DNA of 64,000 nt from Pseudomonas profundi. Lineage in GTDB: Bacteria; Pseudomonadota; Gammaproteobacteria; Pseudomonadales; Pseudomonadaceae. The DNA lies in assembly GCF_008638305.1 (NCBI RefSeq), contig NZ_VTPZ01000005.1:201444-265443 (forward strand). The letters are read 5' to 3'. Positions 6,286-57,979 of the stretch are shown here, one piece after another (the first letter of the stretch is position 1; each line of letters begins with the position of its first letter). Position numbers and translations under genes: made by a program. Below the pieces are notes generated by a model. The model did no database searches. It worked only from the letters and a program-made list of their open reading frames with translations, and was not told where the DNA came from.

Positions 6286-7065
6286 TCAAATCAGGCCGGT
6301 ATAGGCTCCGCCATCCAGCTGCAAATTCTGCCCGGTAATGTAACCCGCCTGAGCCGCGCACAGAAAAGCGCAGGCGGCGGCGAATTCCTCAGGAGTGCCG
6401 AAACGCCGTGCCGGAACCGGGCGGAGCATTTCGGTTCTCGCCTCCTCCAGACTGATGTTCCTGTGCTTTGCCAACTGGCCGGTCATGTAGGCCAGCCGAT
6501 CGGTCGCGATGCGTTCGGGCAAAAGATTGTTGATCGTGACATTGTCACGGATAACTTCTACCGACAGGGCTTTCGAGAACGCCGTCAGCCCGGCTCTGGC
6601 TGCCGTCGAGAGACCCATTGGCAACCGCGGGGACTTGACCATGGCCGAGGTGATATTGACGATCCGACCAAAACGCCTCTCGCGCATTCCGTCAACGACA
6701 GCCTGAATCAAAAGGATGGCGCTGAGCATATTGGCCTCCAGCGCTTGCTGCCAGCAATCGAGATCCCAGTCCTGGAACTTGCCCGGCGCGGGCCCACCAT
6801 TGTTGGTGATCAGAATATCCGGAGCGGGACAAGCCGCCAGGAGCGCGTCCCGGCCAGCGCTGGTGTTGAGATCCGCGACCACCTGAACCACCTCAAGACC
6901 CGTGCTGTCACGGATTGCCATCGCAGCCTCATTCAAGCTGACGGCCTCGCGGCCATTGATGAAAACCTCGCATCCTTCAGCGGCCAGGGCCATGGCGCAG
7001 GCTTTACCCAGGCCCCGCGAAGAAGCACAGACAATGGCTTTGCGACCGGTAATATTCAGATCCAT
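6286..7065 (-). CDS. Atypical SDR family protein lacking the YxxxK motif
   Basis: This is a 259-residue SDR fold. The cofactor loop is CASSRGLG (13-20), with NNGG at 88-91 and Ser140 in NITSAM. Where a classical SDR has YxxxK, this one reads STAAR (Ser153, Arg157), so both the catalytic Tyr and Lys are missing. A related FabG-like subgroup with this substitution is known to me, often annotated as 3-oxoacyl-ACP reductase. The C-terminal GTPEEFAAACAFLCA...GYITGQNLQLDGGAY block is normal. It is divergent from the TetR gene 113 bases away, a common regulator-target arrangement. Any activity must rely on other residues or be non-catalytic. Confidence 0.85.
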   Translation of the reverse strand: MDLNITGRKAIVCASSRGLGKACAMALAAEGCEVFINGREAVSLNEAAMAIRDSTGLEVVQVVADLNTSAGRDALLAACPAPDILITNNGGPAPGKFQDWDLDCWQQALEANMLSAILLIQAVVDGMRERRFGRIVNITSAMVKSPRLPMGLSTAARAGLTAFSKALSVEVIRDNVTINNLLPERIATDRLAYMTGQLAKHRNISLEEARTEMLRPVPARRFGTPEEFAAACAFLCAAQAGYITGQNLQLDGGAYTGLI

Positions 7066-13102: not shown

Positions 13103-13230
13103 CATCCTCTCCACATATATCAGCTTGCACGGCGGTTTTCTCAACCCAGTGCAACCCGGACATAAACTCGTTTAGACCAACTGTCCTTACCCAAACCTCT
13201 AGCGAGGTGAACGGAAGTGCGGTATGGCTA

Positions 13231-14379
13231 CTATTGAAACTGGCTGATATCTATCTTTCGAAGCCCGGAAAATTGCGCAACGATGAGCGTGCCGGGCGCT
13301 TCCGGTCTGGCCGAGGAATACACCTGCCCGGCATAAGGGACCGACAGAAGATCGGTCTCCAGCGTCGTGGTATCCAGGCGAACCAGCTCACCTCGCTCGC
13401 TCACCAGCAATACCTCTCCGCCGGCGGCGCCATCCAAGGCGTCGATCAGCGTCGCGTTTTGCTGAGTGTCCACATGCTGCCAGTTCTCGCCTCCGTCACG
13501 ACTGACGTAGAGATTGCCCCTCAGACCGTAGGCCATCAGCGCGCCATTACTGATATGCACTCCGAAGAAGGTGCCGGTATAGGGAGTATCAACCTGCACG
13601 AAACGCTGCGCTTCACGGTCCAGCCGCATCAGCAAGCCCTGCTCTCCGCTGATGTAGACCTGATCGCCCTGCATGTCGATGCTGTACAGATGCATACGAC
13701 GGTCGTTCTCGGTATGTTCGGTCCAGGGTTCCCAGGTAGCGCCGTTGTCGGTAGTGCGCAGCAGCATGCCAAAAGCACCCAGCACGAATCCTTCGCCGTT
13801 CTCCCTCACGAATACGTCGAGAAAAGGCGTGGCCATGATGTCGGGATCGGCAGACGTGCTGGTTCCAAGGTCGACTTCCCGGAGCATGCTTTCCGCTTCG
13901 AACTCATCAAGATCCGATACGTTGGCGTAATGTTCCCTGAGAAGAGTGACCAGACTCCGACCGTCCAGCTGCACTTCCCATGAAAATCCACCATCGGTGG
14001 TTGCCAGCAAGACAGAGTCATGGCCGACGGCCCAGCCGTTGAGCTCATTCTGGAAGTACACCTGAACCAGATCGACAGCCACTGGACTCGGGGACTGGGT
14101 CCAGGTTTCGCCATCATCGTCAGATATCATGATCAATCCGCGCAAGCCGACACCCACGAGGTTCTCACCAGCACGGGTGACGGCGAGAGTGGGCTGCGCG
14201 TGCGCGGCGGCCTGAACCAAAGCGGATTGTTGCAACGGGTCATGGAAACCGGTTGGCGATTCCGAAGCTTGCTCCGAAGCCGATACCGTTAACCCGATGC
14301 AGCAAGCCCCTGCCATGGCGAGCAAGGCACCTGGGCGGCGTTTACCAGCAGACCAACTGAACAGACGGGATACATTCAT
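13231..14379 (-). CDS. YCF48-related (BNR-repeat) beta-propeller protein
   Basis: This 382-residue exported protein has a signal segment in the first 41 residues (hydrophobic GALLAMAGACCIGLTVSAS). It has repeated BNR/Asp-box blades such as SDDGETWTQSP, TTDGGFSWEVQ, TTDNGATWEPW and SRDGGENWQHV. YCF48/HCF136-type propellers act as assembly factors in plastids. In proteobacteria they accompany RND exporters and DUF1329/DUF1302 proteins, with no proven role that I know. ATG 14379 follows GAGGA; the reading to 14415 has no ribosome site. It lies between the RND gene and DUF1329 and probably acts in the periplasm with them. Confidence 0.88.
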   Translation of the reverse strand: MNVSRLFSWSAGKRRPGALLAMAGACCIGLTVSASEQASESPTGFHDPLQQSALVQAAAHAQPTLAVTRAGENLVGVGLRGLIMISDDDGETWTQSPSPVAVDLVQVYFQNELNGWAVGHDSVLLATTDGGFSWEVQLDGRSLVTLLREHYANVSDLDEFEAESMLREVDLGTSTSADPDIMATPFLDVFVRENGEGFVLGAFGMLLRTTDNGATWEPWTEHTENDRRMHLYSIDMQGDQVYISGEQGLLMRLDREAQRFVQVDTPYTGTFFGVHISNGALMAYGLRGNLYVSRDGGENWQHVDTQQNATLIDALDGAAGGEVLLVSERGELVRLDTTTLETDLLSVPYAGQVYSSARPEAPGTLIVAQFSGLRKIDISQFQ

Positions 14380-14498
14380 TGTTTTTATCCTCAGTGATCC
14401 CAGGAGCATCCTCATGCGGGATGCACCCGGGTCAACCGGTATGATCGGCAGCGCTTTATCCGTCCTGGAGAACCAGCGTTGCCCTGGTCTGGCTCTGG

Positions 14499-15866
14499 TT
14501 AGCGAACGCTTTCTCGGCCCACGATGGCTTCAGGGTTCAACTCGCGCTCAGAACGAGGCTCCTCGAGTACCTGATAGCCGCCATTGAGCGCATCATTGAT
14601 CAAACCGTACATGCCCTTGTTGAAGTCATAGATAGAGTGCTTGACGACGTAAGGAATATCGTGGTTATAAAGCTGAACGCCACCCAGCATCATTGAACGA
14701 TACAGCTGACCACTCTGGTCCCAGGCGTCATACAGGCCAGCCCCATAGGTGTCTTCGTCCAGGTAGTAGGTCCGCTTGCTGTAGACGTGGCGGTTGCCTT
14801 CCTTGAGCGTCGCTTCCACTTCCCATACACGGTGCAGTTCCCACCGCTCGCATTCGGGGTTGACGTGGGACTCCATCAGCTGGGTGTCAGCATCGCAGTG
14901 AAAATACAACTCGTAGTTGTTGTAAGGAATGTACATCTCCTTTCTACCAACCAGATCGAAGTCAAAGCGGTCCTGCATACCCGAAAACATGAACAGCTCA
15001 TCGAACAATTCCAGCCCGCCCATACTGGCTACGGGGGTATCGTAGGCAAACTCGGGGGCCAATTTGACCCGACGCTGTCCTGGCGTATAGCTCCAGGCAC
15101 GACGTGGTTGCTCGGTCGGATCGAGGAAATCCGTATAGCCGGTCAGCTCACCCGCCCGGCGTGCAGGGGCTTTGGTAACCGAATACACACGGGTGTACAT
15201 CTGCGGATCCCGTTCTTCCAGATCCGTCTGATAGTAAGGACGCTCAACGAAGGTGGCCTGCTCGGAAGCCTTGGTCACGGTGCCGTTGGAGGCCACGATC
15301 CAGCTATTGGATGAGGCGGTAGTGGTACCGTATTGGCCGTCGTTGTAACGGGTCTGCTGGTTCCACATCAGCTCATGCCCGGTTTGTGGAATCGGGAAGG
15401 GTATACCGCCCCGACATTCCGGCTCCAGGGCAAGACCGTCTTTCACGGTTTCACAGGTGGTAGCATTGCGCACGGTGGCGTCGAGAACATTCTGGGGATG
15501 CGCCGCCGTACGATGACTGGGGTAGATATCCATGTAATAGGTGTCTGGATTACGTTTGAGCAATTCGATCTGACCTGCACTCAGCTGATCCGCATACTGC
15601 TCATAGTTACTGGCATCGATACGAAACAGCGGCTCTTCATCCTTGAAGGGATCCGCCCAATAACCGCTACCCGGTTCAAAATCAGCAGGAGCGTCACGAA
15701 GCCCCCCTTCAAAAGGGGGGATAGTGCCAGCTTCATTGCCCGCTTGAATCGCCCCGACCATGGTAAGAGACTCGCCAAGCTTGGAAGCCTCCTGCTCAGG
15801 CACTGCGGCCAGTGAATATGCCGAAATCCCTGTCAAGGCGATGCTTAAGGCAAAATGAAGTTTCAT
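14499..15866 (-). CDS. DUF1329 family protein
   Basis: This 455-residue periplasmic protein has a signal peptide ending near SLAAVPEQEA (about residue 20). DUF1329 markers seen include PPFEGGL early, the run RRVKLAPEFAYDTP, and AWDQSGQLYRSMML with YDFNKGMYGLIND at the end. The family is thought to share a LolA/LolB-like lipid-binding fold, so a shuttle for a hydrophobic molecule between the RND pump and an outer-membrane barrel is a reasonable inference. The start at 15866 follows CGGAGC; it lies 23 bases after the DUF1302 stop. Confidence 0.9.
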   Translation of the reverse strand: MKLHFALSIALTGISAYSLAAVPEQEASKLGESLTMVGAIQAGNEAGTIPPFEGGLRDAPADFEPGSGYWADPFKDEEPLFRIDASNYEQYADQLSAGQIELLKRNPDTYYMDIYPSHRTAAHPQNVLDATVRNATTCETVKDGLALEPECRGGIPFPIPQTGHELMWNQQTRYNDGQYGTTTASSNSWIVASNGTVTKASEQATFVERPYYQTDLEERDPQMYTRVYSVTKAPARRAGELTGYTDFLDPTEQPRRAWSYTPGQRRVKLAPEFAYDTPVASMGGLELFDELFMFSGMQDRFDFDLVGRKEMYIPYNNYELYFHCDADTQLMESHVNPECERWELHRVWEVEATLKEGNRHVYSKRTYYLDEDTYGAGLYDAWDQSGQLYRSMMLGGVQLYNHDIPYVVKHSIYDFNKGMYGLINDALNGGYQVLEEPRSERELNPEAIVGRESVR

Positions 15867-15889
15867 AACGTGCTCCGATATTGTGTTTA

Positions 15890-17560
15890 TTAAAAGGAGG
15901 TCTTGTAGGTCAGCGATACCCAACCGCGGTCAGTACCACCTACTGCCCCGTTGCCATTGACCATTTCTGCGCCGTTGGCATTCAGGGTGTTCTTCTCCTG
16001 AGCTGAAGTATCCGCGTAGCGCAAGGTAAAGTCGTGGCTCTGACGATAGGTCATTTGCGCACCAACAGACCAGGCCAACGCGCCTTCAGATCCGCCACCG
16101 GCAGTGGCCGCGTTACCATGCAAGCCGTAGTTGACGGTCAACGGAACGGATAGATCCCACGACGGCAGGATGGCCAGGTATTGCGGTGTATAGTTCACAG
16201 CTACGGCCGCGTAGTTGCGGGTCGAGCAACCGTCTTCCTTATCTCCAGAGCCTGGAATAGTTGGCGTTCGAAGATCGGTACAGGCTGCGTTACCCTCTCC
16301 TTTATAAAGCTCCTCGTTCTTGGTGACCTTGTCCAGATGACTGAATGCGAGTTCAGCTACCAGCACCGAGTTATTTGCCAGCCAGTTGCGGGGCACACCA
16401 TACACTGCGTTAATCACGGCATGATAGGTGTCACCGCGAGGACCTTCGTTATTGACGGAACTGATGCCTGTGGCGTTCAGTGCGCCATCCTGGCGGTACG
16501 ACACTTCCGCGCCGATGGCTGCAGAACCAATATTGCCTGCGTAGCTGATACCCATCAGTTTCACGTTCCGTGGGTAAACCAGGCGGTACTGGCCAGCCGC
16601 CATATCAATCTGAGGAGACAGCCATGCCTGGTAGTCATCAAATTGACGGTAATAAGCGCCCACCGTTGCGCCTAGATCCTGCAGGTCATAGCGTGCCATG
16701 ACACCCCAGTTGGCATCGTCGCGTCCGAACTTGGAGTCCGCATGACGAAGATTGAAGCCGGGCGCCGCTGGCAGACGGTCTGGACCTTCAAAGAAAGGAT
16801 CGGCTGCGCCGAAATAGGTGCCGCCATACGGAAAGCGGGTGTGATCCCATTCGTAGAAATACTGGCCGGAGATGGACAGGTTATTGGTCACCTGGGCCTT
16901 GGCAGATACCTGCCCGATCGGCAAAAACACTTCTTTGGTTTCAATACCCGGGCTGGTGACGGCTTTCACCGCATCCGTTGGCGCCTGGGAGTAGGACATG
17001 GCGTGGGCGCCAAACAACAGACCCTCACCCCAGTACTGCGTGTGCTGCCCGACTTTTATGTTGACCGGCGTGTTGCCCAGATCGAAGTTGGCCCAGACAA
17101 ACGCATCCAGAATCTCTCCAGATGGACCGTAGACGTAGCGCTCTACTTCCGAGCTGTAGGTGTCGTTGTTATAACTTGTCGAATAACCCGGCACGTTGCT
17201 TTCAACGGTGCGATCACTGTAGGCGTCGTCGTACCATGCAGCCGCGCTGACCCGGGCACCGTAATGCCATTTGTAGGCGAGGTCGATTTCCGTCAGCAGA
17301 TCGAGGCGGTTGGTGACGATGTCGCCTTTATCAAACTTCCCGTTCGACTCGTCAAAGTTGGGGTTATTCATAATCGCGCTGTCCTGGTCCTCCGCGCGGA
17401 TACCCAGGTTATAGCGAACGGTATTGTCCCAGCGCAGCCGAATATCAGGATTTCCGACATCGATTTGCATGGCTGAAGCGCTGCCCGTAGCCGCTAGAAC
17501 TGCAAGAGCCAGCGCACTACGAGCCAAACCGATGTGACCAAATTTGATTTTAGTGTTCAT
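15890..17560 (-). CDS. DUF1302 family outer-membrane protein
   Basis: This 556-residue protein has a signal peptide (cleavage likely after TGSASA, residue 30). The mature start IDVGNPDIRLRWDNTVRYNLGIRAED is the hallmark of DUF1302. Alternating strands and a final aromatic residue (SLTYKTSF) indicate an outer-membrane beta-barrel. It is first in the leftward unit DUF1302-DUF1329-YCF48-RND, with AGGAATACAG before the ATG. The set probably forms an envelope-spanning path for a lipophilic compound; import or export cannot be told from sequence. Confidence 0.9.
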   Translation of the reverse strand: MNTKIKFGHIGLARSALALAVLAATGSASAMQIDVGNPDIRLRWDNTVRYNLGIRAEDQDSAIMNNPNFDESNGKFDKGDIVTNRLDLLTEIDLAYKWHYGARVSAAAWYDDAYSDRTVESNVPGYSTSYNNDTYSSEVERYVYGPSGEILDAFVWANFDLGNTPVNIKVGQHTQYWGEGLLFGAHAMSYSQAPTDAVKAVTSPGIETKEVFLPIGQVSAKAQVTNNLSISGQYFYEWDHTRFPYGGTYFGAADPFFEGPDRLPAAPGFNLRHADSKFGRDDANWGVMARYDLQDLGATVGAYYRQFDDYQAWLSPQIDMAAGQYRLVYPRNVKLMGISYAGNIGSAAIGAEVSYRQDGALNATGISSVNNEGPRGDTYHAVINAVYGVPRNWLANNSVLVAELAFSHLDKVTKNEELYKGEGNAACTDLRTPTIPGSGDKEDGCSTRNYAAVAVNYTPQYLAILPSWDLSVPLTVNYGLHGNAATAGGGSEGALAWSVGAQMTYRQSHDFTLRYADTSAQEKNTLNANGAEMVNGNGAVGGTDRGWVSLTYKTSF

Positions 17561-19980: not shown

Positions 19981-22900
19981 ATGGGAACTTCCCTCTCGCT
20001 TGACGACAAGTATACGCAGATAAGCGGCTATCAATTGATGACCGGAGTCCAGGCGCTGGTCCGGCTGCCGCTTATGCAACGCCAGCGCGATCTGGCTGCG
20101 GGGCTGAATACCGCTGGCTTTGTTTCGGGCTATAGAGGCTCACCACTCGGCGGCTTCGACCAGCATCTGTGGCGCGCCCGGGAATACCTGAAAGAGAGCC
20201 ACACCCATTTCCAGCCAGGCGTTAACGAAGAGCTGGCCGCCACCTCCATCTGGGGCACCCAGCAGGTCAACATCTTTGAGGGCGCCACCTATGACGGCGT
20301 ATTCGGCATGTGGTACGGCAAAGGTCCGGGCGTGGACCGCTCCGGAGACGTCTTCCGGCATGCCAATGCTGCCGGCACCTCGAAGTTCGGTGGTGTACTG
20401 GCCGTCGCCGGTGATGACCATGGCGCCCGCTCCTCTTCACTGCCGCACCAGACAGAGCATATATTCAAAGCCGTGATGATGCCGGTTCTGGCACCTTCTG
20501 GCGTGCAGGAATACCTGGATTACGGCATTCACGGTTGGGCCATGTCCCGTTACTCCGGTTGCTGGGTGGCGCTGAAAGCCGTCGCCGATACCGTTGAGAG
20601 CGCAGCGATTGTCGATATCGATCCGTTCCGCGTCGAATCGATCATTCCCGACTTCCAGATTCCCGAAGGCGGCCTGAACATCCGCTGGCCCGATCCGCCG
20701 CTGGCTCAGGAACAGCGCCTGCTCGAACACAAGCTGTATGCCGCCTTGGCCTATGCCCGCGCCAACCGTATCGACCGCGTGGTCATGGACTCACCCAACG
20801 CCCGGATCGGCATCATCACCGCAGGCAAATCGTACTTGGATGTGTGCCAGGCGCTTGAGATGCTCGGCATCGATGCAGAACAGGCCCAGCAGATGGGACT
20901 GCGCGTTTACAAAGTGGGCATGGTCTGGCCCCTCGAAGCCGAAGGCGTACGCCATTTCGCTGAAGGCCTGGAAGAGATCATCGTGGTGGAGGAAAAGCGC
21001 CACATGATCGAGTACCAGATGAAGGAAGAGCTGTATAACTGGCGCGAGGACGTGCGGCCACGCATCGTCGGCAAGTTCGACGACAAGGGCGAGTGGAGCA
21101 TGCCCCACACTGATTGGCTGCTGCCGGCCATCAGTGAGCTGACGCCGGCGCACATCGCCCGCGCCCTGGCCAAGCGGATTCTGCGCCTGCGTCCGGACGA
21201 CAGATTGCAGAACCGCTTGCAGCAGCTCGAAGCACAGCTCACCACCAAGAACGTAATGGGCGCGCTGATGGATCGGGTACCTCACTACTGTTCGGGCTGC
21301 CCGCACAACATCTCCACCAAGGTGCCGGAAGGCAGTCGGGCGCTGGCGGGTATCGGCTGTCACTACATGGCCGCGTGGATCTATCCGCAAACCCAGACCT
21401 TCAGCCAGATGGGCGGTGAAGGCGTAGCCTGGATTGGCCAGGCGCCGTTTACCACCACCAAGCACGTATTCGCCAACCTGGGCGACGGCACCTACTTCCA
21501 TTCCGGCATCCTGGCAATCCGCGCAGCGGTCGCTGCCAAGGCGCAGATCACCTACAAGATTCTGTACAACGATGCCGTAGCCATGACCGGCGGACAACCG
21601 GTTGACGGCACTCTGACCGTGCCGCAGATCACCCAGCAACTGGCTGCTGAGGGGGTCAAGCGTATTGCCGTGGTGACCGACGAGCCGGAAAAATACGAAT
21701 CGGTGAAGAACCTGGCCGACGGCGTGCCAGTCCTGCACCGTGACGAAATGGAAAAGCTGCAGCAGGAGCTGCGCGAGTTCGACGGCGTGTCCGCTATCGT
21801 TTACGACCAGACCTGCGCTGCCGAAAAACGCCGCCGCCGCAAGCGCGGCAAGTTCCCTGATCCGGCGCGCCGGGTGGTCATCAACCAGGCGGTTTGCGAA
21901 GGTTGCGGCGATTGCAGCAGCAAATCCAACTGCATGTCGGTGGTGACCGTCGATACCGAATTCGGCCAGAAGCGCAGCATCGACCAGTCATCGTGCAACA
22001 AGGACTTCTCCTGCCTGTCCGGCTTTTGCCCGAGCTTCGTAACCGTGGAAGGCGGCGCATTGCGCAAGGCCAAGGCGCTGGGCAACACCGGTGACGATGA
22101 ATGGCATCTGCCAACGCCGGCCATGGCCTCACTGGATCAGCCCTACAGCATTCTGGTCACTGGCGTGGGCGGCACCGGCGTGGTGACCATCGGCGCCTTG
22201 CTCGGCATGGCTGCCTACATCGAAGGCAAAGGCGTGCTGAACCTGGATATGGCCGGCATGGCGCAGAAAGGCGGCGCCGTGTGGTCGCATATCCGCATCG
22301 CTGCCGAGCAATCGCAGCTACATGCACCGCGCATTGCTGCAGGCGAAACCAGTCTGCTGCTGGGTTGCGATCTGGTGGTCAGCGCCAACAACGAGACCCT
22401 GGAAAAGCTCCGCCACGGCGTGACCCATGCCGTGGTGAATTCGGACGAAAGCATCACCAGCGAGTTCGTACGCACCTTTGCCCTGCAGGCCGAGAGCGGC
22501 AACCTCGAAGCCCATCCCGATCCCAAGTTCCGCACCCAGGCCATGTCGGCGCAGATTGCTGAAGCGGTTGGCGAGGGTCAGTCCAGTTTCCTGGATGCCA
22601 GTCGTATCGCCACCGTACTGATGGGCGACTCGATTGCCACCAACACCTTCATGCTCGGCTTCGCCTATCAGAAGGGCTGGCTACCTGTCGCGCAAGAATC
22701 GCTGGTCCAGGCCATCGAGCTGAACGGCACCGCAATCGAGTTCAACCTCAAGGCATTCGATTGGGGCCGCCGCGCCGCCGCTGATTTGCCGCGCCTGCGC
22801 AGCCTGATCGACAGCAACAGCAGCAAAGCCGCAGCGCAACCGCTGTCGCAGAATCTGGATGAGGTCATTCAGCGCCGTATCGCCACTCTTACCGAGTATC

Positions 22901-23544
22901 AGAACGCCAAACTGGGTGACAAATACCTGGCGCGCGTGCAGCAGTTCCGCGAGGCTGAAACGCGAATCGCTGGCGAGCCGGGCAAGCTGACCGAGACCGT
23001 CGCACGTAATTACTTCAAGGTGCTGGCTACCAAGGACGAATACGAAGTGGCGCGGCTGTATACCAACGGCGATTTCATGAAAAAGATCGAAGCGCAGTTC
23101 GAGGGCAACTACAAGCTCAACTTCCACCTGGCTCCGCCCATCATGAACAACGCCAAGCCAGGCGAAGAACCAAAAAAACGCAGCTTCGGCCCGTGGATGA
23201 TGCGCAGCTTCAAGTTGCTGGCACGTCTGAAGTTCCTGCGTAATTCGGTCATCGATCCCTTTGGCTATACCGCCGAGCGCAAGGTAGAACGCGAATGGCT
23301 GGCGACCTACGAAGGCATTCTTGACGAGGTGCTCGACAAGCTGACCGCAGAGAAACTGCAAACCGCCGTAGAGCTTACCAACCTGCCAGACATCGTTCGC
23401 GGCTACGGTCCGGTCAAGGAGCGTTTCCTGGATCAGGCCCGCATTCAGCACGCCCGGCTGCTATCGGCATGGCGCAATGAGCGCAAAGCGGAATTTCACG
23501 ACGCCACCGCCAAGGATGCGCGCATCCAGGCCACGCAGCTATAA
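19981..23544 (+). CDS. Fused indolepyruvate-type 2-oxoacid:ferredoxin oxidoreductase
   Basis: This 1187-residue protein joins the catalytic and gamma parts of an archaeal-type IorA/IorB enzyme. The N-terminal pyrimidine-binding part contains [14 protein letters not shown] (about 80-93). A CSGCPHN segment near 436-442 and [11 protein letters not shown] belong to the TPP half. A cysteine cluster [13 protein letters not shown] near 638-650 plus CxxxxxCxxxxCP near 671-682 provides Fe-S ligands. The gamma domain begins at [15 protein letters not shown] (about 728). The family oxidatively decarboxylates 2-oxoacids to acyl-CoA. Placed directly upstream of liuA, it probably makes isovaleryl-CoA from 4-methyl-2-oxopentanoate (inference); arylpyruvates are the alternative. 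Confidence 0.9.
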
Positions 23545-32889: not shown

Positions 32890-32923
32890 GGCGCGGAGCC
32901 GGGGACGGCTCCGCGCCACTTTT
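32890..32923. terminator. Bidirectional terminator after atoB
   Basis: An 11-bp GC-rich stem (32890-32900 with 32907-32917) is followed by ACTTTTC. It sits between atoB and the convergent ferredoxin gene, whose stop is at 32926, and could end both transcripts. Confidence 0.65.
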
Positions 32924-32925
32924 CA

Positions 32926-33249
32926 TCAGATTTGTGTTGGTGGAAGAGTCACCACCATGCCCTCATGCACAGCCTCCAGGATCACGCAACAGCCCAGGCG
33001 GCTCTGTGCAAGCCGGGGAGCAGCGGTACCTTCAAGCATGTCATCTTCCATACCATCCATTTCCGGCAACTGGTCCAGCCATGACTCGTCAATATAAACG
33101 TGGCAGGTAGCGCACTGGCACGCCCCTCCACAATCACCCAGGATCCCTTCCAGACCGTGGTTGGCCGCAACCTGCATAAGCGTCTGGCCCGCAACGGCTT
33201 CTACAACCTGTTGACGATCATCTGAAAAATTGAAAATTACGGTCGGCAT
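32926..33249 (-). CDS. 2Fe-2S ferredoxin (adrenodoxin/ISC-type spacing)
   Basis: This encodes 107 residues. The cluster ligands are Cys40, Cys46, Cys49 and Cys87, with spacing C-x5-C-x2-C-x37-C, as in adrenodoxin-like ferredoxins that feed P450s and Rieske oxygenases. A further Cys88 follows the last ligand. The start at 33249 follows GGAGAACC; the reading to 33294 has no ribosome site. It is divergent from the Rieske genes with a 199-base gap, so it is the obvious electron donor for them (inference). No matching reductase gene is in the window. Confidence 0.9.
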   Translation of the reverse strand: MPTVIFNFSDDRQQVVEAVAGQTLMQVAANHGLEGILGDCGGACQCATCHVYIDESWLDQLPEMDGMEDDMLEGTAAPRLAQSRLGCCVILEAVHEGMVVTLPPTQI

Positions 33250-33328
33250 TGGTGGTTCTCCGCGCCTGGTGACTACCGGTAACTGGGTATTCATGATGCC
33301 TTACAAATTAACAGATTTGAACATTTAT

Positions 33329-33357
33329 AAGATATCTGTCTACTTTCATTTGATCAA
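33329..33357 (-). promoter_or_regulatory. Candidate sigma-70 promoter for the ferredoxin
   Basis: On the minus strand TTGATC, 17 bases, then TATCTT lie about 80 bases before the ferredoxin start, within an AT-rich stretch. Spacing is ideal and the hexamers are moderate matches; transcription is not shown. Confidence 0.35.
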
Positions 33358-33448
33358 AATGCCGAGCCAGCCTAAAGTATTTCCAGGCATCTTCAGCAAG
33401 GCGAAGGCTGCACATAACACTAAAACAACAACAACGAGGTAGACCCTG

Positions 33449-34390
33449 ATGGCTAATAGCGCTTGGTGGGCTTCGGCTTTGTCCGAGGCCGTAAACAATG
33501 AAAAACCCCTGGCAGTCGTCTGCAATGGCGAGGAGCTGGTCCTGTTTCGGGACAGGCAAGGTCAGGCGTTTGCATTGGAAGACCGTTGCCCTCACCGCCG
33601 CGTGCCCCTATCCCTTGGCTGCGTTGTAGAGAGCGGAATTCAGTGTGGCTACCATGGCTGGACATTTGACGGCGCCAGTGGCGCTTGCACGGCGATACCC
33701 AACCTGCACGTCGATGAACGAGTGCCTGCCCGATATGCGGCGCGAGCCTATCCGGTGGCTGAACGAAACGGATTTGTTCACGTCTGGTTAGGGGAAGGTG
33801 AGCCGAACGAGTCAGTGCCTGCGGCAACTTATCAGCCTGAAGGTCGCGAATATACCGGCGCGGCCACCGTCAGTATTCTGCACGAGGAATATCTTGCCGC
33901 AATGCTTGATGGACCCCACTGCCTGATCAGTTTTGACGCGGTAAAGATGACCGATTTCTTTCTGGGCGATCCCTGTCTGAAGGATAACCATCTGGTCCTT
34001 GATCGAGGTGCAGTCTGGTCTACCAGGGTGCTTCCGCCGCAATTCGTTGTCGACTATCCCCTGATCGTCCGTACGTCCGTTCCTGTATGCGGAGGCGACA
34101 TTCGCGTCGACCTTCTCACCGAGGAGGAAACGCCGCTGTGTACCGTTTTCATTGCCTCGGGAGCCAACCGACGCAGTACCACCAGTCTCTGTTGGCGAGG
34201 CTTTCTGCACCGAAGCGAAGCCGGAGTTACACCGCTGCGCTGGCGTGCAGCGCGCCGGGCACAACGCCCACCTTTTCGGGTACATGCCCATGTCGATGGC
34301 GAAGCGTTAGCCGCTCTGCTGGTAGCACCCTCCCGTGACCTGGACCGGCTACGCGATCAATCGCTGATTCCTGTACGTGCCGCCGTCTGA
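33449..34390 (+). CDS. Rieske-domain protein with degenerate catalytic domain
   Basis: This 313-residue protein looks like a ring-hydroxylating oxygenase alpha subunit, but only half is intact. The Rieske motif is complete: Cys47-Pro-His49-Arg and Cys66-Gly-Tyr-His69-Gly-Trp. The mononuclear iron site should read D-x2-H-x4-H. Here D154-G-P-H157 is followed by CLISF, so the second His is Phe162. The C-terminal part is short and rich in Arg/Ala, and I find no clear third ligand. It can probably carry electrons but not activate oxygen by itself. The next gene, 21 bases downstream, has the opposite defect. GAGGTAGACCCTG precedes the ATG. Confidence 0.85.
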   Translation: MANSAWWASALSEAVNNEKPLAVVCNGEELVLFRDRQGQAFALEDRCPHRRVPLSLGCVVESGIQCGYHGWTFDGASGACTAIPNLHVDERVPARYAARAYPVAERNGFVHVWLGEGEPNESVPAATYQPEGREYTGAATVSILHEEYLAAMLDGPHCLISFDAVKMTDFFLGDPCLKDNHLVLDRGAVWSTRVLPPQFVVDYPLIVRTSVPVCGGDIRVDLLTEEETPLCTVFIASGANRRSTTSLCWRGFLHRSEAGVTPLRWRAARRAQRPPFRVHAHVDGEALAALLVAPSRDLDRLRDQSLIPVRAAV

Positions 34391-34411
34391 TTGTCCCAAG
34401 GAGAATTCACA

Positions 34412-35449
34412 ATGCACACTGTATCCACCAACGACACCGTCGCAGGGCAGCGCAGCAAGCGTCCCTCCGACTGGACTCCGGTCAATTATGATCTGCACGA
34501 CACCTGGTTTCCGGTCTCGCACAGTCGCGACGTGAGCTCAAGGCCAATCCGCCGAATCATCCATTCCCAGCCTTATTTTCTCTGGCGTGAAAACGGAATA
34601 CCTCAGGCGGCCGAGTTCCATCCATCGCGGCTGGAAGCCCTGCGCCACGCCAGCAGCGCCTTCACCGGAGGTTCCGGCAGCTATCCTGTTATAGAACGCT
34701 ACGGCTATATCTGGGCGTGGTATGGCAACCCCGACAACGCAGACATTCAGCTGCTGCCACATATCCCCTTCCTGCCCCTGGACGGCAATATTCCGGGCTA
34801 CACACAGCGGACTGTGCGGTTCGATGCCTCATCGGCGCTCTCGGTGGAAAACCTCATCGACCTGACCCACGCCGATTTCCTGCATGCCAATACCATAGGC
34901 GACGGCATCTCCGAATCCGACGTCGTCGAAGTCGAATGGACGTCCGAAACGGTAACCAGAACCCGTATGGTCACGCAAAAGTCAGTCGCGCCGGTGATGC
35001 GCTGGGTGGGCGGGGTACGCGCCAAGTATCAAGATTTCCGTGCCGTGCTGCATATTCACTTGCGCAGCAATGTCTGCATTTCCTACCCCCGATTTCGACC
35101 TGGTTACGACGTTCCCAATCTGCAACCGTTTTTGCCGGTAGGACGGCATCGCTCCCGTTGCGACGTTACTTTCAACACCACCGCAGCGCCCTCTCCTTTT
35201 CGCTATTTGATGCCGCGCATCAATTACATCATCCAGCCTCAGGACAACTCGGTGGTACGTCCGCAGAACCAGCGCTATCTGGACGAATCAGACAGGCGTG
35301 ACCTGCATTCTCGCTTCGACGCACCCGGCACTCGATACCGCTACCAGATGGAACAACTGGCTAAGCGCCAGCGCCGGGGGGACTTTTCCTACGGTACTGA
35401 TGCGGAACCGGGACGTGACATCACCACATTGCTAGGCATGGATGGCTAA
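34412..35449 (+). CDS. Rieske-less oxygenase alpha-like protein with intact iron site
   Basis: This is a 345-residue relative of Rieske non-heme iron oxygenases. The catalytic half is complete: E146-N-L-I-D150-L-T-H153-A-D-F-L-H158 gives the bridging Asp and two His ligands, and IIQPQDNSVVRPQ has Asp278 at the usual third-ligand place. In the N-terminal half the sandwich scaffold is recognisable (WFPVSHSRD, PYFLWRENG, YGYIWAWYG), but both cluster loops are gone. There is no CxH or CxxH, and the only cysteines are Cys222 and Cys251-region singles. It would need electrons from a Rieske centre of another subunit, most simply its operon partner. CAAGGAGAATTCAC precedes ATG 34412. Confidence 0.85.
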   Translation: MHTVSTNDTVAGQRSKRPSDWTPVNYDLHDTWFPVSHSRDVSSRPIRRIIHSQPYFLWRENGIPQAAEFHPSRLEALRHASSAFTGGSGSYPVIERYGYIWAWYGNPDNADIQLLPHIPFLPLDGNIPGYTQRTVRFDASSALSVENLIDLTHADFLHANTIGDGISESDVVEVEWTSETVTRTRMVTQKSVAPVMRWVGGVRAKYQDFRAVLHIHLRSNVCISYPRFRPGYDVPNLQPFLPVGRHRSRCDVTFNTTAAPSPFRYLMPRINYIIQPQDNSVVRPQNQRYLDESDRRDLHSRFDAPGTRYRYQMEQLAKRQRRGDFSYGTDAEPGRDITTLLGMDG

Positions 35450-35523
35450 ATGCTCCGCGCGCCCGAGAAACCTTGCGATCAACTGAGCGCCATGTAACGC
35501 GCTCCAACCAGGAGAACTGCCCT

Positions 35524-35898
35524 ATGTTTTCACACGTCACTGTAGGTACCAACGACCTATCCAGAGCTCGCATCTTCTACGATTCAGTGCTTGGCGCACT
35601 GGGTTATGAAAACCTCGGCAACATGGAAACGGCATCGCTCTGGGGCGGCGCAGGCCCGCGCTTCGTAGTGCTGAAACCAGCCGACGGCAACGTCGCCAGT
35701 GTAGGCAACGGCCTGACCGTAGGCTTTGCAGCGGCGGATCGAGCCGCAGTGGGTGAATTCCACAAGCGTGCCCTGGAGGCAGGAGGAACGGATGCTGGCG
35801 CCCCGGGGTTTCGGGACGTGGGGCCGAATGTGTACGCAGCCTATGTACGCGATCCGGATGGTCACAAGATAGTGGCCAGCTGCATTAGCGAAGGTTAG
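35524..35898 (+). CDS. VOC family protein (glyoxalase-like)
   Basis: This 124-residue single VOC unit starts FSHVTVGTNDLSRARIFYDSVLGALGY, with probable metal ligand His4. The C-terminal strand is NVYAAYVRDPDGHKIVASC; the usual last-strand Glu is not obvious there, so the metal site may be incomplete. ATG 35524 follows CCAGGAGAACTGCC. It is 74 bases after the Rieske-less oxygenase on the same strand and may belong to the same operon, for instance to handle a reactive product (inference). Confidence 0.8.
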   Translation: MFSHVTVGTNDLSRARIFYDSVLGALGYENLGNMETASLWGGAGPRFVVLKPADGNVASVGNGLTVGFAAADRAAVGEFHKRALEAGGTDAGAPGFRDVGPNVYAAYVRDPDGHKIVASCISEG

Positions 35899-35967
35899 TG
35901 CTCCCAAAGGCAACGAGAAAAGTCGCCGGAGTAAAACGATCAAATCGCTTCTGCCATTATTAACGCG

Positions 35968-36002
35968 CCCCGGAGCGCTTCCCTTCAGAAGGGCTTCCGG
36001 GG
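35968..36002. terminator. GC-rich hairpin between convergent genes
   Basis: CCCCGGA and TCCGGGG (35968-35974 and 35996-36002) enclose a second short stem CCCTT/AAGGG. It lies between the VOC gene and the convergent molybdopterin oxidoreductase. There is no T-run; termination is plausible in both directions. Confidence 0.45.
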
Positions 36003-36101
36003 GGTCCATGCCAGCATTGCAGCCAAGCTTGAGCCTAAAGCCTCAACATAGCTAATCGAGGCCTTTCGTGCATACATCCTGGCAGGTAGCGACTTACTGA
36101 C

Positions 36102-38444
36102 CTATCCATGGACAAACCTTAACTGGTGCTTCGATCCGCAATCACCCGGATAAAGCTTGATCGGTATGAACTTCGATGCTGGCGTGAAGCTGTCAACACC
36201 GTAACTATCCAGCGGCACCAGCGGATTGATCTCTGGGTAATAGGCCGCTGCCTGCCCTTCCGGAATGTCGTAGGGAAGCAGCGTAAAACCTTTTATCCGT
36301 CGCTCAACACCATCATCCCAGAGTGAAACCAGATCTACTTTCTGAGCCGCCTCAAAGCCCAACCTGTCGATATCCTTCTGATTGACGAAAAGGACTTCGC
36401 GCTGCCCCGAAACTCCCCGGTAGCGATCATTCAAGCTATAGATAGTTGTGTTGTACTGATCGTGTGAGCGGAGGCTTTGCAAGATCAAATCATGGGTTCG
36501 TCCACTGGCATGAACCTTCTCGTGAATCAGACTACCCGGCAGGGAGGTAGCTGAAAAACGCGCCTTCTCGGTACTGGTACGCCACACACGCTGGCTGGCC
36601 AAGTTGGGCAAGTGAAAGCCGCCAGGCTGCTTCAGACGGTCTTCAAACTGATCGAAACCGGGCACCGTCCGGGCAATGGCGTCCCGGATCAGCCGATAGT
36701 CGTCACGCATCGCTTGCCAGTTTAAGGGATGGTTGCCCAGCGTGGCCTCGGCGATGCCGGCTATGATCCAGGGTTCCGAGCGCATCTGCTTTGACAGAGG
36801 CTCTAGTTGCCCAAACGATGCGTGCACCATGCTGAAGGAATCTTCAACGGTGACGCATTGAGGGCCTGTTGCCTGCTGGTCGATATCCGTTCTGCCAAGA
36901 CATGGCAAAATCAGAGCATCCCTGCCCACCATCAGATGGCTGCGATTGAGCTTGGTACTGATCTGCACCGTCAACGCACAATTGCTCAGTGCCTGATGGG
37001 TCAGCACGCTGTCAGGCGTGGCTTGCGCAAAATTACCACCCAGCGCTACAAACACACGGGCTTCGCCTTTGAGCATGGCGTGGATGGCTTCAACAGTGTT
37101 GTGGCCATCGCGGCGTGGCGGCTCGAAACTAAAGCTCTCCGCCAGCCGGTCGAGGAAGCCCTGCGGCGGCCTTTCGTTGATGCCCATGGTGCGGTCACCC
37201 TGAACGTTGCTGTGCCCGCGCACCGGACAGAGGCCAGCACCGGGGCGTCCGACGTTGCCGCGCAATAGCTGCAGGTTGACTATTTCCTGAATAGTCGCCA
37301 CGCCGTGATGATGTTGGGTGATGCCCATCGCCCAGCAGAAGATGACGTTGGACGCCTCGCAATAGAGCTTGGCGGCCCTCTCGATCTGACCCAGACTCAG
37401 GCCTGATTGCTCGACGATATGCTCCCAGCCAGTGGCGTCCAGCACCTCCAGATAGGTGGCAAATCCATCGGTCTGCATGAGAATGAAGTCATCGTCCAGT
37501 ACGCCGGAAACCCCGCGGCGTTGCGCGTCTCTTTCCCATGCCAGGAGATATTTCGCCATGCCCCGGAGAATGGCCATGTCACCACCCAGCGCCGGTCGAA
37601 AGAAATCCGTATGCATCGGCTTCGACCGGTTGGTGAGCATTTCCGACATCTTCTGCGGATGCTGAAATCGCTCCAGCCCGCGCTCCTTCAATGGGTTGAA
37701 ACACACCACCTGCGCGCCGCGCCTGACAGCATCCCGCAGCGGCTCAAGCATGCGCGGGTGATTGGTACCGGGATTTTGCCCAAGAACGAATATGGCATCG
37801 GCATGCTCGAAGTCGTCGAAGGTCACCGTACCCTTGCCCGTCCCCAGACTCCCGTTCAGCGCTACACCGCTCGCCTCGTGGCACATGTTCGAGCAATCGG
37901 GAAAATTGTTGGTGCCGTAGGCACGGGCAAACAACTGATAGAGAAAGGCCGCTTCGTTGCTGGCGCGACCCGACGTATAAAATTCGGCCTGATCCGGAGA
38001 TTCCAGATGGTTGAGGTGGCCGGCAATCAGCGCAAAAGCAGCATCCCAACTGATCGGGAGATATCGGTCGGTCGCGGCATCATAGCGCATCGGTTCCGTC
38101 AGGCGTCCCTGGTATTCAAGCCAGTAGTCACTCTGCTCACGCAATTGTGCGACGCTATGCCGGGCGAAAAACTCGGCGTTCACCCGACGACTGGTCGCTT
38201 CCCAATTGACCGCCTTGGCGCCATTTTCACAGAATTTGACCGCACCGGATTCCGGTGAATCACCCCAGGCGCAACCGGGGCAATCAAAGCCTCCCTGCTG
38301 ATTGGTTCTGAGCAACGCCTTGATGTTCTTGATGGGCTGTTCGCTGTTCAGCCACGCATGGGTAACGCTCAGCAACGCACCCCAGCCAGCTGCCGGGCCA
38401 TTGTAGATTTTGAACTGCGTTTTGCTGTTATGTAACCAACTCAT
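36102..38444 (-). CDS. FdhF/YdeP-type molybdopterin oxidoreductase
   Basis: This 780-residue protein belongs to the YdeP branch of the formate dehydrogenase H-like family. FDCPGCAWGD (Cys55, Cys58) and FCENGAKA (Cys72) are the reduced N-terminal cysteine set. The Mo ligand position equivalent to Sec140-His of E. coli FdhF is Cys188-His189 in SNMCHEASG. The C-terminal molybdopterin dinucleotide-binding domain contains NDRYRGVSGQREVLFVN. There is no Tat signal, so it is cytoplasmic. No partner electron-transfer subunit is adjacent. Family members are linked to acid and formate-related stress, but the true substrate is mostly unknown. The start has only a weak GGTGA ribosome site. Confidence 0.88.
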   Translation of the reverse strand: MSWLHNSKTQFKIYNGPAAGWGALLSVTHAWLNSEQPIKNIKALLRTNQQGGFDCPGCAWGDSPESGAVKFCENGAKAVNWEATSRRVNAEFFARHSVAQLREQSDYWLEYQGRLTEPMRYDAATDRYLPISWDAAFALIAGHLNHLESPDQAEFYTSGRASNEAAFLYQLFARAYGTNNFPDCSNMCHEASGVALNGSLGTGKGTVTFDDFEHADAIFVLGQNPGTNHPRMLEPLRDAVRRGAQVVCFNPLKERGLERFQHPQKMSEMLTNRSKPMHTDFFRPALGGDMAILRGMAKYLLAWERDAQRRGVSGVLDDDFILMQTDGFATYLEVLDATGWEHIVEQSGLSLGQIERAAKLYCEASNVIFCWAMGITQHHHGVATIQEIVNLQLLRGNVGRPGAGLCPVRGHSNVQGDRTMGINERPPQGFLDRLAESFSFEPPRRDGHNTVEAIHAMLKGEARVFVALGGNFAQATPDSVLTHQALSNCALTVQISTKLNRSHLMVGRDALILPCLGRTDIDQQATGPQCVTVEDSFSMVHASFGQLEPLSKQMRSEPWIIAGIAEATLGNHPLNWQAMRDDYRLIRDAIARTVPGFDQFEDRLKQPGGFHLPNLASQRVWRTSTEKARFSATSLPGSLIHEKVHASGRTHDLILQSLRSHDQYNTTIYSLNDRYRGVSGQREVLFVNQKDIDRLGFEAAQKVDLVSLWDDGVERRIKGFTLLPYDIPEGQAAAYYPEINPLVPLDSYGVDSFTPASKFIPIKLYPGDCGSKHQLRFVHG

Positions 38445-40924: not shown

Positions 40925-42343
40925 TTAGGTTGGTATGCCTAGAACGTCTTTGGGATGAAGAATCAATTTGTGGGCCACCTCAGGAAAAAGAAAGCTAAGG
41001 AGAGGATCGAAATCGCGGTTTGGCATGTATTTCTCATCGCCCCGTTTCAGCGCAGCTCTGTAACCCTTCGCCTTGGCGAGCCAATTTTTTTTTGGATCAT
41101 GTATTTTCATGGTCGCTGCGCGGTCGTGCGCCTCCAGCATCAATCGAAATAACCAAATCGTTCGCTTTCGTTGATCGACCAAATAATGGCCGACCTTTAC
41201 GAGGTCCGTGTGACGCGTGCCTACGGGCATTCCTGCTCTAGCCGAGTAGGCAGCAACGAGATAAAAGTGCAGGCCATCACTGCGAACCGGCCGATCCGGT
41301 AGCAAAATACCGCGCTGAAAAAAACGAACCATGAAATCAGACCAGGTACGGTCGAATTCTTCACCATGGATTTGCTCCGCCAGGAACGACAAGTAAAAAC
41401 GGTTAAAGTCTTTTCGCAGGCTAGCGTCGTGTTCGTGCAACTGAATTGTATACAGCTTCGCCTGCGTTGCCGACCTGGCTGATTCGTAATCGAAAAAATA
41501 TGCGCGGGGCACGCCTGCATAGCTGTTATCGAAAGTCAATTGATCGAAATAGACTATACTGCGTCCAATCCGTTCGACGATTTCCGTACCTGCCAAAACC
41601 GGCTCAAGCCACATACACTCAAGAGCGAACCTCTTGTTCACTTGCGAAAGCTGCACAGTCTCTCTCGTAATACGAAACGCGTTTCTGTTGTTCGCATAAA
41701 AGATGTCGTCTTCAGACAAACGAAACAGATCCAGTTCTAGATCCCTAAAAAGCCACAGAAGCCTCCCCTCGTTTCGCCGATAAAACGCCATGCGCTCGGC
41801 TATAACGTGAAGGAACGTGGTCGACAACTGTACTTCAAATGCGACGCGCAGACCGTTCCTGCAGCTCCGAACATCAGGCTGACGCCAACTGACGCCATCG
41901 ATATCCCACCACCGCTTCTCTGACATCGTCTCGGAAAAAGAAGCATCTGCAGCCAGGCTCTCGAGAAGCATACCTTTCAGTTGCTTATGTTCATGCCCTT
42001 CTTTAGCCTGGGCGAAGCGCCTTGCGTCAATGGCTTTTGCTCCGGACCCGCCGAGGCCCGTGCACGAGCCATCGTCTCGTAGGTGTTTGAAAAAGAAGCG
42101 TTCGACGGCCCGGTCTCTAATTTTTATAGATGCGAGAATCATTGCATTCTCACACTTTGGGCAAACGTATCTACTCTGCCCCTCGATCAACTGAATACGT
42201 AAAGCGACGCGACGCTCGCTTATTACACTGCCATAATCCTCTCCTCCCATGAATTCCAGCAGGCTGAGCCATCGACCTGTATCTCGGTCCAGCACCATTT
42301 CATGTTCTTGAGTCTGAGCAGGCTCTACGATGCATCCGTTCAT
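40925..42343 (-). CDS. CoiA/DUF6035-like putative nuclease
   Basis: This is a 472-residue soluble protein. Residues 59-94 form a zinc-ribbon-like part (YVCPKCENAM, then FFFKHLRDDGSC). Then comes EGHEHKQLKGMLLESL, QPDV (Asp157) and FEVQLST (Glu170, Gln172). This order, Cys pair, FxH, HxxLK, pD, ExQ, is that of CoiA competence proteins, thought to be PD-(D/E)XK nucleases. The 280-residue C-terminal part is unfamiliar to me. A strong AAGGAGCTTT ribosome site supports the ATG at 42343. It lies in an integrative-element remnant, so roles in DNA uptake, element maintenance or defence are all possible. Confidence 0.65.
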   Translation of the reverse strand: MNGCIVEPAQTQEHEMVLDRDTGRWLSLLEFMGGEDYGSVISERRVALRIQLIEGQSRYVCPKCENAMILASIKIRDRAVERFFFKHLRDDGSCTGLGGSGAKAIDARRFAQAKEGHEHKQLKGMLLESLAADASFSETMSEKRWWDIDGVSWRQPDVRSCRNGLRVAFEVQLSTTFLHVIAERMAFYRRNEGRLLWLFRDLELDLFRLSEDDIFYANNRNAFRITRETVQLSQVNKRFALECMWLEPVLAGTEIVERIGRSIVYFDQLTFDNSYAGVPRAYFFDYESARSATQAKLYTIQLHEHDASLRKDFNRFYLSFLAEQIHGEEFDRTWSDFMVRFFQRGILLPDRPVRSDGLHFYLVAAYSARAGMPVGTRHTDLVKVGHYLVDQRKRTIWLFRLMLEAHDRAATMKIHDPKKNWLAKAKGYRAALKRGDEKYMPNRDFDPLLSFLFPEVAHKLILHPKDVLGIPT

Positions 42344-56452: not shown

Positions 56453-56800
56453 CGGGGTGCCCTCTTGATAGGTGATCCTGTAATTGAGAAAGGCTGAGGA
56501 CAACGAAGTTCCGACCTGGTGAATTCAAATCTTTTCCGCCGACTTTTAAATCAGTGTATTAGGCGCAACCTGAACGGCTCGTCTCATTTTCCGGACGGAT
56601 ATTGCACGGCATCCAGGCATACCAAAGTTGGAGACCAGCGATGCGTTACTTGGTTCTATCCGTTCTTCACTGATTATTCCAAGAAATTAAAAACGGGCAC
56701 TAAGAACCATTTGATATATAAAAACTATGAACGTTCTTGCTGGTTAAACTTCTACTTTGTACTACCACATCAACGTGCCATTAACCGTCTGGAGGCATTC
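56453..56800. other. Divergent promoter region in the stress cluster
   Basis: These 348 bases lie between the leftward DUF892 gene and a rightward ferritin-like gene. An open frame runs through it in the phase of the rightward gene, but without a start signal. The stretch is AT-rich around 56690-56760, as expected for promoters. No small gene is seen. Confidence 0.5.
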
Positions 56801-57970: not shown

Positions 57971-57979
57971 GAGGCTTCC

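Follow-up and report, generated by a model that had tools for sequence, protein, structure and literature searches.

In Rieske oxygenases the alpha subunit carries two metal centres on one chain, a Rieske [2Fe-2S] cluster and a mononuclear iron site, and since both are present in each subunit of a homotrimer, electron transfer between subunits is hard to dissect. Can the two centres be divided between two chains? The question is raised by two adjacent genes, here called P1 and P2, in a 64,000-nucleotide stretch of Pseudomonas profundi DNA (RefSeq assembly GCF_008638305.1, contig NZ_VTPZ01000005.1, positions 201,444 to 265,443), which is referred to below as the window. A pair that occurs in nature with its sites so divided would allow each site to be changed, reduced or counted alone, and it raises the further question of how a threefold-symmetric enzyme family accommodates two unlike chains. 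A sequence-only reading of the window had proposed that P1 keeps the cluster and P2 the iron, and that the two form an obligate alternating hetero-oligomer. The observation was confirmed and the interpretation is partly supported. P1 and P2 are very probably two obligate subunits of one Rieske oxygenase, with the metal sites on separate chains.

Conservation was followed in a set of 87 loci, consisting of the best 80 of 142 relatives that a six-member P2 alignment detected when GTDB 220 was scanned at one genome per species, three plasmid loci, three loci of a single genome (G087) and the window itself. Some of these loci are nearly identical. P1 features were counted on 86 loci and P2 features on 87.

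The Rieske motif of P1 (C47-P-H49 and C66-G-Y-H69) is intact in the sequence, as had been claimed, and Pfam agrees, with a Rieske match (PF00355, 1.7e-21) and an overlapping Rieske_2 match; a Gemini_AL2 match (0.26) was below the family cut-off. Across the family C47, C66 and H69 are each present in 86/86 P1 and H49 in 85/86. The iron site was said to be broken, and it indeed reads D154-G-P-H157 followed by F162. This loss is family-wide, as none of the 86 P1 has a D..Hx(3-6)H iron motif in the aligned segment. Residue 157 is His in only 9 of them (Glu in 40, Gln in 11), and position 162 is Phe in 54 and Ile in 22 (together 76/86). In all 27 P1 rows aligned with complete enzymes, the alignment has a gap in place of the segment that holds the third iron ligand. 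P1 has lost the mononuclear iron site. D154 is kept in 85/86 and aligns with D157 of the dicamba O-demethylase DdmC, the bridging aspartate of that enzyme. The degenerate catalytic half of P1 measures about 190 residues, and 7 of 193 positions in it, D154 among those, are conserved at 97% or more.

P2 shows the complementary pattern. Its residues are numbered from the ATG at 34412, the best start, which follows an AAGGAG; the mechanical open reading frame (ORF) opens at 34391, right after the P1 stop codon (34388-34390), and the claimed spacing of 21 bases on one strand is therefore that between this stop and the ATG. The only Pfam match is VanA_C (PF19112, 2.4e-32). D150, H153, H158 and D278, reported earlier as intact, are in the sequence, together with N147, and N147, D150, H153 and H158 align with DdmC residues 154, 157, 160 and 165. 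A full iron triad in P1, which would have refuted the sequence-only reading, was not found. N147, D150, H153 and H158 occur in 87/87 P2, the first three in part by construction of the scan (see below), and D278 in 86/87, the remaining row being truncated by a contig end. The bridging Asp and the Asn preceding it function with a docking Rieske cluster.

The absence of a CxH/CxxH pair from P2 was likewise borne out. The span from A66 to Y91 corresponds to the part of complete enzymes that bears the two cluster-binding loops. Its median length is 24 residues in 27 P2 (21-26 in all 27), while the figure is 54 for 30 complete enzymes and 58 for 27 P1. About 30 residues bearing the cluster-binding loops have been lost from P2. 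No Rieske ligands were found elsewhere in the 87 P2, apart from a single regular-expression match in P2 of a Trinickia locus; the alignment puts this match outside the deleted loops and it is judged to be chance.

The CxH...CxxH motif is accordingly found in P1 only (85-86/86), and the 2-His-1-carboxylate triad with the bridging Asp in P2 only (86-87/87), and neither chain has both centres as a Rieske oxygenase alpha subunit does. Since it held in 86 P1 and 87 P2, this complementary ligand pattern is not chance.

The pair spans alpha-, beta- and gammaproteobacteria. It was found, among others, in Halopseudomonas, Pseudomonas, Stutzerimonas, Marinobacter, Paraburkholderia, Massilia, Thauera, Aromatoleum, Zoogloea and Polaromonas, and further in Porticoccaceae, Spongiibacter, many sphingomonads and Acidocella. 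P1 lies immediately upstream of P2 on the same strand in 86/87 loci, which bears out the conserved adjacency that had been named as a check; in the exception P2 itself is cut by the contig start. The pairing stays constant down to 24% (P1) and 32% (P2) identity. Of 54 aligned relatives (10 read-through fusions, 22 P1 and 22 P2), 32 matched Rieske and 32 matched VanA_C; these figures, which are counts with no member list, fit the fusions plus one kind of chain each. P1 and P2 of the window are in the same frame with one TGA between them, but the frame offsets over 84 loci (38/24/22) do not suggest a fusion by stop read-through. Genome G087 carries three divergent pairs, with P2 46%, 47% and 38% identical to that of the window and each with an adjacent P1, which suggests different substrates. 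In three annotated plasmid records P1 is labelled 'Rieske (2Fe-2S) protein' or similar, and P2 'oxygenase' or 'aromatic ring-hydroxylating dioxygenase subunit alpha'. Such labels hide that P1 and P2 look like one enzyme.

Does either chain occur alone? The P2 search of 390 Pseudomonadales genomes returned 6 copies in 4 genomes, and the P1 search returned 6 copies in the same 4 genomes, each adjoining P2 by its coordinates, so that the two are found together from both search sides. An extra P1-profile match in one further genome of this search (128 bits) carries both motifs and was set aside as a complete enzyme. In 96 relatives, P1 (E up to 1e-36) and P2 (at least 238 bits) were found in the same 9 genomes, 8 of them within the 37 genomes of the window's genus; the P2 matches in 11 further genomes are weak and partial (at most 49 bits). 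Across the phylum (398 genomes), P2 was found only in the genome of the window, as was P1 at 507 bits. P1-profile matches of at most 125 bits occurred in 17 other genomes, and the 18 loci examined all bear Rieske and iron-His motifs. Five loci (L130, L131, L134, L135 and L143) had looked like iron-less Rieske proteins by regular expression; a D-x2-H-x3-H variant is present in them and they look complete. At a coverage of at least 80%, P2 was found in 4 of 72,556 plasmid records (of 6 matching), and P1 in those same 4 and one more (of 111 matching, the other 106 covering less than 80% of P1). The additional match, from Acinetobacter johnsonii (30%), lies beside a VanB-family gene and is labelled in its record as a ring-hydroxylating dioxygenase alpha subunit. 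No solo copy of P1 or P2 was found in the genome searches, where the top five candidates per genome were scored in the large sets and a weak solo gene could escape.

Profile-profile comparison aligned P1 with P2 over 152 columns at 89.7% probability, which indicates that they are homologous chains and not two pieces of one broken gene. In a tree with complete enzymes (81 of 84 rows, three long branches being dropped), P1 and P2 each formed one clade, with bootstrap/SH-aLRT values of 100/97 and 100/100. An approximately unbiased (AU) test of P1 and P2 as sisters gave a p-AU of 0.479, by which this grouping is neither rejected nor demonstrated. The distance matrices of the two chains correlate with r = 0.94 over 86 loci (0/1000 permutations as high), and separate trees of 27 loci have 13 of 24 splits in common, versus 0.2 after shuffling. 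In seven within-genus comparisons dN/dS was 0.17-0.22 for P1 and 0.035-0.061 for P2, and both genes are under purifying selection. Conservation is higher in the half that keeps its centre, with 0.67 for the Rieske half of P1 versus 0.53 for its other half, and 0.73 for the catalytic half of P2 versus 0.57. The whole reads as one old split, selected for and inherited as a unit, possibly produced by duplication followed by complementary loss.

Divergent from P1 lies a gene for a [2Fe-2S] ferredoxin (Table 1), of the putidaredoxin type. In the proposed mechanism this ferredoxin, itself reduced by some reductase, would reduce the Rieske cluster of P1. Docking of P1 on the P2 catalytic domain would resemble that between neighbouring subunits of a normal Rieske oxygenase, and the electron would cross the subunit interface via the bridging D150 of P2 to the iron bound by P2 H153, H158 and D278. 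O2 would be activated there and a C-H bond hydroxylated, perhaps that of an alicyclic or terpenoid-like substrate, after which a short-chain dehydrogenase (SDR) may oxidise the alcohol product. A ferredoxin orthologue (E up to 1e-30) was found in 8/58 relatives, and these are precisely the 8 pair-bearing genomes among the 37 of the genus, the 29 without the pair having none (Fisher p 2.6e-8, relatedness ignored).

Several observations weigh against this interpretation. The ferredoxin gene adjoins the pair in the genus, and their co-distribution may be block co-inheritance. A ferredoxin gene of this type, always with the motif, was found in the fetched flanks of only 24/87 loci; therefore the other loci must use other donors. 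The scan patterns, EN[LI][LIM]DLTH[ASI] or W[VA]WYG[ND]P, build in part of the P2 conservation, namely that of N147, D150 and H153; H158, D278 and every P1 feature are independent of them. Two P1 depart from the family, one having Ala for H49 (L096) and the other lacking D154 (L036, one of the three in G087). Mutual information over 85 pairs (Neff 44) did not indicate an interface between the Rieske half and the catalytic half. Of the top 100 covarying pairs, 23 involved the P1 Rieske half, where 38% would be expected, and 58 the P2 catalytic half, where 67% would be expected. These covariation data are too few to decide, yet they give no support for the expected interface. Finally, D154 of P1 is conserved without an obvious partner if the two chains alternate.

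As to the first of the two deviating P1, it comes from a metagenome-assembled genome of Robiginitomaculum, and the Ala in place of the otherwise constant His49 is either a sequencing error or a changed cluster.

The last of these points bears on how the subunits are assembled. The structurally known Rieske oxygenases are threefold symmetric, according to the passages of PMC12445004 on their structures, and strict alternation is doubtful because a three-membered ring cannot alternate two chains. The assembly is probably not strictly alternating, and a ring with P1-P1 contacts or stacked rings would fit better. The conservation of D154 suggests that a Rieske cluster still docks on P1, for which only that of another P1 would be possible. 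Retention of D154 would be accounted for by a P1-P1-P2 ring or by stacking of a P1 ring on a P2 ring; a purely structural role of this residue is possible as well. We propose, tentatively and with rather less than even confidence, a widespread class of bacterial Rieske oxygenases in which duplication and complementary loss split the metal sites and gave an asymmetric assembly, such as stacked P1 and P2 rings or a P1-P1-P2 ring in which a single interface is productive. If true, this would break the family's threefold rule of one cluster and one iron, and electron supply and catalysis could be tuned separately.

Strict alternation in an even-numbered ring or a 1:1 dimer, as the sequence-only reading had it, is a sub-form of the two-subunit reading, with which its chances overlap, and we regard it as rather unlikely. 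It would be the simplest way of giving each P2 iron a P1 cluster, and a heterodimer was at one time suggested for the Micromonas chlorophyllide a oxygenase, discussed below (PMC9615114, in its passages on this enzyme). The threefold symmetry of the known structures argues against it, and so does D154, kept in 85/86 P1 though it would face a P2 domain without cluster loops. What stands of the earlier proposal is the complementary split, which is conserved, adjacent and co-inherited; what is called into question is the strict alternation.

It is improbable that P1 is instead a dedicated Rieske-type carrier, binding only in passing to a homotrimer of P2, in the manner of a Rieske ferredoxin that has kept a remnant C-terminal domain. 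Rieske-type ferredoxins do donate to other Rieske oxygenases (PMC9361823), and P1 evolves faster than P2 by dN/dS and is less conserved in its catalytic than in its Rieske half. However, the conserved positions within some 190 degenerate catalytic residues are more than a carrier seems to need, and P2, without cluster loops of its own, keeps its bridging Asp in 87/87, so a cluster should sit at the place of the neighbouring subunit's cluster.

Two further explanations deserve very little credence. Decay of one or both genes into pseudogenes, or the chance neighbourhood of two independent enzymes, might be thought from the fact that each chain is without a centre that Rieske oxygenases normally need, but purifying selection on both, pairing that persists at low identity and the lack of solo copies among the top-scoring candidates speak against it. 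That P2 draws its electrons elsewhere while P1 is a regulator or chaperone with a redox-sensing cluster would suit the degenerate catalytic half of P1, but not the bridging Asp and preceding Asn that P2 retains in 87/87, whose role is tied to a docking Rieske cluster.

Table 1. Features of the P1-P2 locus and of proposed partner genes, in window coordinates
Feature	Position	Strand	Basis
P1, 313-aa Rieske subunit, catalytic half degenerate	33449..34390	+	ORF; PF00355 1.7e-21
Rieske [2Fe-2S] ligand codons of P1 (C47, H49, C66, H69)	33587..33655	+	sequence, conservation, DdmC alignment
P1 D154 to F162, with bridging-Asp position retained and family-wide loss of the iron His positions	33908..33934	+	
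P1-P2 gap, 21 bases, AAGGAG upstream of P2 ATG	34391..34411	+	sequence
P2, 345-aa predicted catalytic subunit, mononuclear iron site, Rieske cluster loops deleted	34412..35449	+	ORF; PF19112 2.4e-32
P2 A66 to Y91, short linker where complete enzymes hold two cluster-binding loops	34607..34684	+	
P2 D150-x2-H153-x4-H158, bridging Asp and two iron His	34859..34885	+	
P2 D278, third iron ligand	35243..35245	+	aligns with Asp of ED motif of complete enzymes
[2Fe-2S] ferredoxin, C-x5-C-x2-C-xn-C, divergent from P1, proposed electron donor	32926..33294	-	PF00111 1.7e-9; motif
Short-chain dehydrogenase (SDR), proposed alcohol oxidation step	6286..7065	-	homologues (73-76%) after P1-P2 in Pseudomonas/Stutzerimonas

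In the 87 loci the pair is constant and its neighbours are variable. A homologue of the SDR is the next labelled gene after P1-P2 in Pseudomonas and Stutzerimonas loci; within the genus the SDR is also present in genomes without the pair (14/58 genomes at E 1e-70). On a Massilia putida plasmid the pair follows a DUF1302-DUF1329-YCF48-MMPL-VOC-ECH-SDR-QOR series, most of which also precedes it in Thauera, Aromatoleum and Zoogloea loci. The window has genes of the same kinds at 7.9-17.6 kb, and its QOR gene at 38.6 kb is 76% like that of Massilia. Consecutive genes in the region of the pair, at 10589-17560 (- strand), encode an MMPL/RND transporter, a YCF48-like BNR protein, DUF1329 and DUF1302. 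In the passages of PMC6394551 on the Ame monoterpene efflux system of Castellaniella defragrans, DUF1302, DUF1329 and an RND transporter are parts of that system. In many sphingomonad loci the pair lies among LLM oxidoreductases, a sulfotransferase, a ferredoxin and a ketosteroid-dehydrogenase-like FAD enzyme. These surroundings hint that the substrate might be hydrophobic, alicyclic or terpenoid-like, and that its hydroxylation might be followed by SDR oxidation.

The pair is also carried by chromosome 3 of Paraburkholderia xenovorans LB400 and by Pseudomonas vancouverensis Dha-51, which raised the possibility of a role in diterpenoid catabolism, in connection with the abietane (dit) cluster. 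The word Rieske is absent from PMC13063091 and PMC10710418, and their abietane-cluster passages contain no such pair. Family scans of the neighbours in LB400 and P. vancouverensis, where the choice of ORFs was mechanical, were little informative. No promoters or terminators were found in 32900-36150 of the window, where predictions were fewer than in shuffles.

Other genes of the window were noted in passing. An FdhF/YdeP-type molybdopterin oxidoreductase gene (36102-38444, - strand) adjoins the pair and has a homologue in the flanks of 2/86 other loci. A large 2-oxoacid:ferredoxin-oxidoreductase-like fusion (POR, TPP_enzyme_C and DUF6537; 19981-23544, + strand) resembles genes that flank four other pair loci. 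A 472-aa protein encoded at 40925-42343 (- strand) combines DUF6035 and DUF7830. Of two adjoining ORFs at 56519-58711 (+ strand), the second is ferritin-like and the first has no Pfam match at 0.001.

How does the pair compare with known systems? Its closest parallel is the chlorophyllide a oxygenase (CAO) of Micromonas. A 2013 study by Kunugi in the Journal of Biological Chemistry reportedly placed the Rieske site on one chain and the mononuclear iron on the other, with both genes needed. According to the passages of PMC9615114 on the enzyme of Micromonas pusilla (MpCAO), it occurs as two polypeptide chains, was active when purified with VanB as reductase, was suggested to be a heterodimer, and may be a trimer of dimers. 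P1 and P2 are likewise two homologous chains that each keep one centre. MpCAO, however, belongs to a eukaryotic alga and acts on chlorophyll, whereas P1 and P2 are adjacent genes in apparent catabolic clusters of heterotrophs, and the likeness is drawn from the description of the two systems. On these terms the pair would be a bacterial parallel to the algal split, and the same architecture may have arisen twice.

A looser parallel is the caffeine N-demethylase NdmC/NdmD(/NdmE) of Pseudomonas putida CBB5, in which NdmC is a catalytic chain without a Rieske site and receives the cluster from its partner, much as P2 would from P1. NdmD is a reductase that contains flavin and plant-type ferredoxin domains; P1, in contrast, has no reductase FMN/NAD or ferredoxin Pfam domains and consists of a Rieske domain and a degenerate oxygenase half only. 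Among proteins of solved structure, DdmC (PDB 3gb4/3gke) comes closest in sequence to P1 (3e-29) and second closest to P2 (4.1e-12, after 7qwt). It is fed by an adrenodoxin-type ferredoxin, DdmB, and unlike P1 and P2 it carries both sites on one chain. Table 1 of PMC12445004 gives it as a homotrimer (alpha3). The best NCBIfam match of both chains is the 4beta-methylsterol monooxygenase SdmA (NF052579), to which P1 matches with its Rieske part (2e-20) and P2 with its iron-His motif region (1.5e-7). Their scores of 73.1 and 30.7 bits are below the SdmA cut-off of 600, which leaves both outside that family, and SdmA is a single chain. NdmA and NdmB differ from P1 and P2 in that each of their chains is complete. 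The same table in PMC12445004 lists them as an alpha3-alpha'3 heterohexamer, that is, two different alpha-type chains in one complex.

The sequence-only reading had also stated that no operon of this kind is described. In literature with mainly open-access coverage, which makes for weak evidence of absence, no description of a bacterial split pair of this kind was recognised, and to that extent the statement holds; as a general one it gives way to the two-chain CAO of Micromonas (PMC9615114, as above). Taken together, P1 and P2 represent a real, conserved bacterial form of the two-chain Rieske oxygenase, for which the Micromonas CAO is the precedent.

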